From NCBI RefSeq assembly GCF_018613235.1, contig NZ_JAGGQP010000003.1, positions 186,001 to 250,000 on the forward strand: a stretch of DNA of 64,000 nt, written 5' to 3'. The position numbers and the translations under genes were made by a program. Positions within the stretch are counted from its first letter, which is position 1, and the number at the start of each line of letters is the position of its first letter. This DNA is from Bacillus sp. ISL-41. Its GTDB lineage: Bacteria > Bacillota > Bacilli > Bacillales > Cytobacillaceae. The notes under the pieces are model-generated. The model saw nothing but the letters and a program-made list of their open reading frames with translations. It did not search any database and was not told the origin of the DNA. This document shows, piece by piece, positions 29,010 to 31,417 of this stretch.

Positions 29010-29038
29010 TAAAAACAGGCCCTGATTATCAGGACCTG
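29010..29038 (-). terminator. Terminator after peroxiredoxin gene
   Basis: CAGGTCCTGAT/ATCAGGGCCTG stem with T run on the minus strand. Confidence 0.88.
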
Positions 29039-29044
29039 CACGCA

Positions 29045-29656
29045 TTAAATATTTCCTATATTTGATGGGTCTGTACTGACTCCTTGCTGGCCCGGCACCC
29101 AGTTCGCCGGCACACCTTTTCCTGTTTGTTTTGCATACTCGAAAGCCTGCAGCATCCTTACGTGCTCAGGAAGGTTGCGGCCGACATTTCCGGGATAAGT
29201 AAGCTTCGCTCTGATAATGCCACCGGGGTCGATGAAAACTGAAGTCCTGAAGCAGGCCCCTGTTGTTTCATCCAGGATTCTATATGCACGGCTGATTACC
29301 TGCGTCCTGTCGCTTACCATTGGATACGTAACATTTTTCAAAGAAGGAGAAGTCTCTTTAAAAGCCTTGTGTGAATAAACACTGTCAGTGCTGATTGCCA
29401 GCAATTCAGCACCCAGCGCTTTTATATAAGGGTATACAGCGGCGACCGCCGCCAGCTCTGTCGGTCAAACAAAGGTAAAATTACTTGGGTAGAAAAATAA
29501 GATGACCCACTTTCCCCGATAATCCTCAAGGTTAATCTTCTTTATGTCACCATTGATCAATGCATCAGCTGTAAAAAGCGGGGCCTGGTCATCCCGGTTC
29601 GCACAAAAAACAGTCGGACATTCAACCAAATCCTCAGCGTACAATTTTTCCTCCAT
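29045..29656 (-). CDS. Peroxiredoxin with in-frame UGA at the catalytic cysteine (probable selenoprotein)
   Basis: Read through one UGA (29465-29467), this frame gives 203 residues of AhpC/TSA peroxiredoxin. The UGA, codon 64, falls where the peroxidatic cysteine belongs: [17 protein letters not shown] against the family's FTFVCPTEL. No other break is present: the frame continues through [28 protein letters not shown] and [15 protein letters not shown] to a terminator. AGGAGGG precedes the ATG. A GC hairpin with GGUC loop follows the UGA by 12 nt, as in bacterial SECIS elements. The resolving cysteine of the usual VCPANW is absent (GVPANW), implying a one-selenocysteine mechanism. Alternative: pseudogene by a single point mutation. 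An annotation pipeline would probably split it in two. Confidence 0.85.
29436..29467 (-). promoter_or_regulatory. Candidate bacterial SECIS element
   Basis: Immediately after the UGA the RNA can form GCGGC-GGUC-GCCGC (29452 to 29439), with a lower ACA/UGU stem and a 6-nt internal bulge containing a U. The apical GGU lies at +18 to +20 from the UGA. The E. coli fdhF SECIS has a GGUCU loop about the same distance after its UGA. Confidence 0.7.
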
Positions 29657-29681
29657 TGCAGCCGCCCTCCTTTATTTAAAT

Positions 29682-30426: not shown

Positions 30427-31332
30427 TTAACCTTGTCGTTTTTTAAAATGGGCAAGTACAAGTCCGTTGCCTACAACTGAGTCATTCTGCCGCTTGAAGC
30501 CTAGTTTTTCATAAAGCTTTGTTGCCGGCTTGTTGTCTGCACCTGTTGAAACGAGCATCTCTGAGTATCCAATCTGTTCTAATTGAAAAATCAGCTTTTT
30601 GGCAATACCTCTGCGGAAAAAGTCAGGGTGAACCATCATCCGATGGATATCGATAACTTTCCCTTCTTTCTTAAAAGAGAGCGCCCCAGCAAGCCTGCCT
30701 TCCATATAATAGCCAATGAAGGTTTCTCCACAATCCTGAAGCTGCTCGAATGTTTCCTTTAACGGCGGGATTTCATCTGTGCCGATTAGATCTGCTTCTA
30801 TTTTGTATGATTTTCTCTGCAGCTCCAGCACCTCGGCACACTCCATAATAACATTAAGATTGATATGCCTGAATTCAGGCAAGAATCCGCTGTCTTTTAT
30901 TTTGTTTATAATCAGCTTTTGCCTTTCTGTTAACGAAGGCAGGCTGTTTAACGGGAAAAAGCGCAGGTCCTTGCTCTCCCCATCATTCATCTTCAGCTCG
31001 CCTTCCCAATACTCGCAGGCATACAAAGCGATCGCATTATATATCTCATCGCCATTAGGATATCGGAAATAGTATTCTTCCCCGGCAACCATTTCTAAAA
31101 ATTTCAGCCTTTTTAAATGCAGACCTGTTTCCTCGAGTAATTCCCTGCGTGCCGTTTCCTGAAAGCTTTCTCCAGGCTCCATCGCCCCTCCCGGAATTCC
31201 CCACCTGCCTGTATCAGTCCTTAGCTGCAGCAATACTTCATATTCCCTATTGAAAACAAGCACAGCGGAACCGACCAGAATGAGAGGCCTGCTGCCAATA
31301 AGTGCGCGGATTTCTTTAATATAGTCGCTCAT
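30427..31332 (-). CDS. Nudix hydrolase fused to GNAT acetyltransferase
   Basis: 301 residues. Residues 15-150 hold a Nudix domain with an intact box (GGAMEPGESFQETARRELLEETGL). Residues 165-300 hold a GNAT domain, with acetyl-CoA loop FFRRGIAKKLI and the terminal ATKLYEKLGFKR. Start ATG 31332 (MSDYIKEIR, the usual Nudix head) is preferred over 31344 because GGGGG lies 5 nt before it. The Nudix half is expected to cleave a nucleoside diphosphate derivative and the GNAT half to acetylate an amine; a shared substrate is possible. This fusion is unusual. Confidence 0.87.
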   Translation of the reverse strand: MSDYIKEIRALIGSRPLILVGSAVLVFNREYEVLLQLRTDTGRWGIPGGAMEPGESFQETARRELLEETGLHLKRLKFLEMVAGEEYYFRYPNGDEIYNAIALYACEYWEGELKMNDGESKDLRFFPLNSLPSLTERQKLIINKIKDSGFLPEFRHINLNVIMECAEVLELQRKSYKIEADLIGTDEIPPLKETFEQLQDCGETFIGYYMEGRLAGALSFKKEGKVIDIHRMMVHPDFFRRGIAKKLIFQLEQIGYSEMLVSTGADNKPATKLYEKLGFKRQNDSVVGNGLVLAHFKKRQG

Positions 31333-31417
31333 GGTCTCCCCCATTACAAAAAATCTCCTATTTCATTTATACTAAGTAAAGCATACGTAAAATTGTTGTG
31401 TTTTGAAAGGAGCAATC

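Follow-up and report, generated by a model that had tools for sequence, protein, structure and literature searches.

A conserved in-frame UGA at the catalytic codon points to a selenocysteine peroxiredoxin subfamily in Bacillaceae-type bacteria

Does a UGA codon at the catalytic position of a bacterial peroxiredoxin (Prx) gene mark a broken gene, or is it read as selenocysteine (Sec)? The question is raised by a gene of Bacillus sp. ISL-41 that lies in a stretch of 64,000 nucleotides of contig NZ_JAGGQP010000003.1, this whole stretch being referred to here as the window. The gene and its parts, all on the minus strand, are as follows.

29045..29656, minus strand: reading frame of the candidate Sec-peroxiredoxin, 203 codons from ATG to TAA if UGA is taken as Sec
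29465..29467, minus strand: the UGA, in frame at residue 64, where the peroxidatic Cys is expected (PSNFTFV-U-PTEL), read directly from the letters
29438..29453, minus strand: putative bacterial SECIS hairpin GGCGGC-GGUC-GCCGCU within the AAVAA codons, from comparative pairing
29666..29672, minus strand: AAGGAGG as ribosome-binding site, 9 nt upstream of the start codon, read directly
29111..29113, minus strand: codon of the resolving Cys of 2-Cys Prx/AhpC (VCPAxW), here Val (GVPANW), placed by alignment to solved 2-Cys Prx and to AhpC of the same-genus genome G084
29015..29039, minus strand: terminator-like hairpin with a T-rich tail, 3' of the gene, pattern match only

An in-frame UGA kept across relatives

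The initial annotation, made from the letters of the window, had described one peroxiredoxin frame with a lone UGA at the catalytic Cys codon (FTFV-U-PTEL), and direct reading agrees, the only TGA of the 203-codon frame falling exactly at codon 64 (29467-29465, minus strand). The frame opens at an ATG (29656-29654) preceded nine bases upstream by AAGGAGG, which bears out the strong start site ascribed to it, and its product (hereafter the window protein) matches the Pfam family AhpC-TSA (PF00578) at 125.1 bits. The terminator proposed with it stands in part: a hairpin with a T-rich tail is present at 29039-29015, but one such hairpin was found against a shuffle mean of 0.9, a count no better than chance and weak alone. 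Translation table 11 splits the frame into pieces of 63 and 119 amino acids, and the mechanical list of open reading frames contains a TTG-started frame (29404-29045) downstream of the UGA; standard calling thus shows such a gene as two broken pieces, which can be missed or called a pseudogene. RefSeq protein WP_225003809.1 of Cytobacillus spongiae, with the product name 'peroxiredoxin', is read through the UGA at full length; its gene (NZ_CP089998.1 486630-487226, locus L223) lies on a 690-kb replicon, and the annotation table carries no selenocysteine remark.

Relatives were collected at four depths. A search of genome contigs gave 16 loci, of which 15 were read (L032, a short partial match, was left out); TGA occupies the catalytic codon in 11 and in none of four sphingomonad homologues, which are 38-39% identical and have the motif FTPVC. 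Of the 193 family genomes, 96 have an orthologue with at least 55% identity; these orthologues occupy 99 loci, all with TGA, and the next matches among those listed reach at most 39% identity. The gene is not peculiar to a single genome. In the order sample (397 genomes), 53 genomes match at E ≤ 1e-45; TGA is present in 52 of them, and one (genome G369) has no stop. The phylum sample (398 genomes) yielded 32 at E ≤ 1e-40, TGA being present in 32/32. Of 18 phylum loci taken from beyond the own genus, nine are subfamily-like and nine PrxU-like, a division with which the tree agrees for the 17 included (partial locus L198 was left out).

For codon-level comparison, 140 orthologous loci were read, comprising one named locus (L027), 99 from the family and 40 from the order; L017-L026 (mostly the same genes under public names), L090 (identical in extent to L076) and the PrxU locus L089 were set aside. 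The initial annotation had suggested comparing UGA with UGU/UGC in relatives, and the catalytic codon proved to be TGA in 139 loci (136 genomes plus one named record), TGT in one, and TAA or TAG in none. Close relatives differ mostly at third positions on both sides of the UGA, and the frame is intact on either side in the window gene and in its relatives, as the claim of no other lesion had implied. The selenium form has almost certainly been retained by related species numbering well over a hundred. A stop within a gene is most often a lesion, and absence of the resolving Cys would also suit a recent pseudogene or a sequencing or assembly error, that is, a nonsense mutation in a gene of 2-Cys-like Prx type; this explanation is already contradicted by the relatives, in which TGA persists at identities of 54-100% to the window protein without a single TAA or TAG, with purifying selection downstream of the UGA and co-occurrence with Sec genes (see below), and it retains practically no probability.

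Selenocysteine machinery and the hairpin behind the UGA

The source genome (4.62 Mb, 99.98% complete, with the window on its contig C33; nearest named relatives Bacillus sp. ISL strains and Mesobacillus) contains selA, selB, selC (tRNA-Sec) and selD, the set for which the initial annotation had proposed to look. The tRNA-Sec (C12:179688-179780) scores 67.4 bits, over cut-off, and is also called by ARAGORN with anticodon tca. SelB, on contig C57, is 627 amino acids long and scores 359.6 bits against a cut-off of 242.25; selA (563.1 bits) and selD (394.1 bits; C48:6196-7122, L066) adjoin each other divergently, and the catalytic site of selD itself contains an in-frame TGA (KAG-U-GCK). Additionally, two formate dehydrogenase alpha genes over cut-off have one in-frame TGA each (C39:75511-77520 and C5:70392-72413), and two more copies over cut-off are without TGA.

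The association extends to relatives. Of the 96 family genomes that carry the UGA gene, 94 have a tRNA-Sec match at E ≤ 1e-9; among the 97 that do not carry it, 77 have one (Fisher p 4.9e-5, kinship ignored). At E ≤ 1e-8 it was found in 38 of 40 order genomes, the exceptions being G369 and G224, and hence in 38 of the 39 order genomes that carry the UGA gene. Three UGA-gene genomes in all lack a tRNA-Sec match; two of these (G224 and G161) have SelB over cut-off, and the third (G079), without SelB over cut-off, is only 66% complete. G224 (L074) is nominally 100% complete and holds both the UGA peroxiredoxin and SelB, with no tRNA-Sec found at E ≤ 1e-8. Across the family, tRNA-Sec is over cut-off in 171/193 genomes, and since 77 of them have no UGA peroxiredoxin of this subfamily, their machinery is presumably kept by other selenoproteins.

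In Escherichia coli fdhF-type genes, the UGA precedes a hairpin whose GGU loop lies about 18-20 nt further along, and decoding involves SelA, SelB, SelC and SelD. The window gene has the same UGA-hairpin layout: the hairpin, at 29453-29438, starts at the twelfth nucleotide after the UGA and spans nucleotides 12-27, so that GGU falls at 18-20 nt, where the initial annotation had placed it. The gene belongs to another protein family than fdhF, and the loop, GGUC in 130/139 loci, may also be AGUU (9/139), or CGUG in relatives outside the order.

The codons that form the hairpin (+5 to +9 after the UGA) encode AAVAA in nearly all loci, and amino acids alone therefore fix some of the pairs; the test was confined to two pairs in which both partners are synonymous third positions. 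The 139 UGA loci give 136 distinct sequences, in which the first of these pairs is A:T in 68, G:C in 55 and G:T in 13, and the second G:C in 127 and A:T in 9. Both are complementary in 136/136, where codon usage in the rest of the genes predicts about 13%, and none of 528 control pairs drawn from other conserved degenerate columns was paired throughout (best 0.888). Moreover, synonymous entropy among 39 conserved degenerate columns is lowest at codons +6 and +7, at 0.35 bits, the median being 1.83. In a quick tree, at least 11 and 10 changes fall on the two sides of the first pair and at least 3 and 3 on those of the second; on starred branches the independent pairs number 5 (p 0.25) and 1, too few for covariation significance. 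Among nine subfamily members from the phylum, read by eye, six have C:G and three have A:T at the second pair, and the first pair forms in 8/9; in L194, a subfamily relative outside the order, one pair is an A:A mismatch. Folding energy of the 41-nt stretch in the window is no better than that of its shuffles (z = 0.12), so the evidence for the hairpin is comparative rather than thermodynamic. On this evidence the element 3' of the UGA is conserved as a structure, as a SECIS hairpin would be.

The single exception among the 140 loci lies in genome G369, which is 100% complete and has TGT at the catalytic codon, no tRNA-Sec match and no SelB over cut-off; both variable hairpin pairs are broken in its gene, and Ser replaces both the Pro and the Thr of the active-site motif. 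The Cys form falls inside the clade, and its best reading from the tree is one Sec-to-Cys change, its exact place being on no starred branch of a tree whose bootstrap had not settled. G369 and its neighbours provide a natural Cys/Sec pair for asking why Sec is retained.

That Cys is possible at this site might also suggest that Cys or Trp is inserted at the UGA, through a different tRNA or by frequent near-cognate readthrough. Such decoding would not account for a synonymously constrained SECIS-like hairpin that is broken where the UGA is replaced and SelB and tRNA-Sec were not found, and TGA also ends genes in the usual way within the window, where two of ten neighbouring frames checked (cydA and an MFS transporter) end in it; we hold it to be extremely improbable. 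Decoding of the UGA as selenocysteine is, by contrast, strongly supported by these comparisons.

A further alternative is a regulatory stop, the gene yielding mainly the 63-aa product, with the downstream half separate or selenium-dependent, as in a selenium sensor. To our knowledge, Sec decoding is never fully efficient, and the TTG-started frame noted above could supply a downstream product; set against this, the 63-aa piece would end inside the conserved active-site motif, the downstream part would be without the fold strands that the structural model places at residues 29-34, 37-42 and 50-55, and conservation spans the whole frame, which makes a primarily regulatory UGA very improbable. 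Sec insertion at the UGA remains the preferred reading: the probable selenoprotein first proposed is supported by the Sec machinery of the genome and by retention of the UGA in relatives, and there is a very high probability, judged from genomic data, that this is a working selenoprotein gene.

Active site and family placement

The window protein has the full PxxxTxx(C/U) motif, including its Pro, plus the catalytic Arg. Throughout the UGA loci, Thr at U-3 (Thr61) and Arg at U+73 (Arg137) are invariant (139/139 each), and the Pro at U-7 is present in 82/139, replaced by Ser in 25, Ala in 21, Gly in 8 and Thr in 3. An AlphaFold model with Cys in place of Sec (pLDDT 89.8, pTM 0.88) has the Prx (thioredoxin-like) fold; the top 50 Foldseek matches fall in the 2-Cys Prx/AhpC group, with TM scores on the query reaching 0.86, and the 60 PDB sequence matches listed belong likewise to the 2-Cys Prx/AhpC group.

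The claim that the resolving Cys is lost (GVPANW) holds well beyond this gene: no Cys occurs in that C-terminal region in any of 139 UGA loci, and a CPxxW-type motif was found in 0/140. The window protein has Cys at positions 13, 18 and 135, with C18 the commonest in relatives. This N-terminal C18 ('FCA') was considered as a substitute resolving Cys; a crude motif is present in 106/140 loci, but in 22/139 UGA loci, with start codons assigned by rule, the protein is free of Cys, and C18 is therefore dispensable. An external reductant would be needed at least in those 22 loci, because they encode no Cys.

The protein resembles AhpC/Prx1 but has no C-terminal resolving Cys, and is not a typical 2-Cys Prx. 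It shares with AhpC (typical 2-Cys, TIGR03137) the fold, the TxxC/U active site and the catalytic Arg, but has Sec for the peroxidatic Cys, lacks the resolving Cys of VCPAxW, is 36% identical to AhpC of a same-genus genome, and falls short of the TIGR03137 equivalog cut-off (155.9 bits against 272). Peroxiredoxins of the 1-Cys (Prx6) type have no resolving Cys and use an external reductant; the window protein resembles them in these respects, but its 60 listed PDB matches and 50 fold matches are of the 2-Cys Prx/AhpC group, not Prx6.

Its best NCBIfam model is PrxU (NF040737), but the protein is not PrxU: it scores 165.7 bits against a cut-off of 270 and is placed in a separate clade. The cut-off is likewise missed by subfamily members and by the Cys form (L187 at 191, L194 at 174.8 and L088 at 139.8 bits), and is passed by the PrxU-like relatives L089 (387.6) and L201 (316.6). 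In the tree, this clade (support 96/91), the PrxU-like proteins (99/95) and AhpC (100/100) form separate branches, the bootstrap not having settled. PrxU of Eubacterium (Peptoclostridium) acidaminophilum was not in the tree and was compared pairwise only: it is also of the AhpC/Prx family, with UGA at the same catalytic codon (FTFV-U-ATE) and no C-terminal resolving Cys (EVAPSGW there), but it is 38% identical to the window protein and has a C-terminal extension, whereas the window protein ends at IGNI. A PrxU also occurs within the family, in the genome holding L089 (G007:C16:680500-685000); it has the UGA followed by the hairpin TTTCAGC-GGTC-GCTGAAA and is about 39% identical to the window protein.

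Proposed mechanism and wider setting

Taken together, we consider it highly likely that the gene encodes a one-Sec peroxiredoxin of AhpC/Prx1 fold, with a SelB-decoded UGA, acting as a Sec peroxidase that depends on an external reductant alongside 2-Cys AhpC. SelB carrying Sec-tRNA-Sec would bind the hairpin just behind the UGA, and the resulting Sec selenolate at residue 64, aided by Thr61 and Arg137, would attack H2O2 or organic hydroperoxides. The selenenic acid so formed would be reduced by an external low-molecular-weight thiol or a thioredoxin-like protein, since no C-terminal resolving Cys is left and certain orthologues are entirely Cys-free. The enzyme probably works beside, not instead of, ordinary 2-Cys AhpC: an AhpC with VCPAKW was read in ten family genomes, seven of which also hold the UGA gene.

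A peroxidase role is likely, as judged from the active site. That seven genomes have both enzymes, that gene neighbours differ between genera, and that the PxxxTxxU Pro is kept in 82/139 loci would also fit a protein in which Sec is inserted for another main role, such as redox sensing or relay, or peroxynitrite or selenium handling; this seems unlikely given the invariant active-site Thr and Arg and the description of Sec-Prx as H2O2-reducing enzymes (PMC13188914).

Sec-peroxiredoxins as a broader kind are already known (PMC9312934, PMC1794560, PMC5029168, PMC13188914), and PrxU is reported to be upregulated in Sulfobacillus (PMC7409299). A 2006 paper gives three selenoproteins from three families in Bacillales. 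PMC13188914 (2026) states that selenoproteins are rarely retained by aerobic bacteria, and no mention of Bacillus, Bacillales, Bacillota or Bacillaceae was found in that text, nor of Bacillus, Bacilli, Firmicutes or Bacillales in PMC5330540. Among the open-access papers listed, main texts only, none on this enzyme was found by title or abstract opening; the subfamily is widespread and apparently undescribed. In one Bacillaceae-type family, 96 of 193 genomes carry a Sec gene of antioxidant type, although selenoproteins are called rare in aerobes.

The named genera of these bacteria use oxygen. We offer tentatively, as a possible but doubtful extension, that this is an old, almost obligatorily Sec-using subfamily in oxygen-respiring spore-formers, without a resolving Cys, recycled by bacillithiol/bacilliredoxin, and with selenium supply setting peroxide tolerance; the almost obligatory use of Sec is suggested by the finding of a single replacement by Cys among the 140 loci, in a genome where no Sec decoding was detected. 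If true, selenium supply would set peroxide tolerance in spore-forming Bacillaceae-type bacteria.

The genomic surroundings of the gene vary. CydAB was considered as a conserved partner and is unsupported: of the 152 loci examined, a set with some duplicates and short flanks, 29 have cydA, all in the own genus or one further genus, and a DJC28-domain gene (Pfam) takes its place in 42. Elsewhere in the window, a single minus-strand frame at 30427-31344 fuses a Nudix domain with a GNAT acetyltransferase domain.
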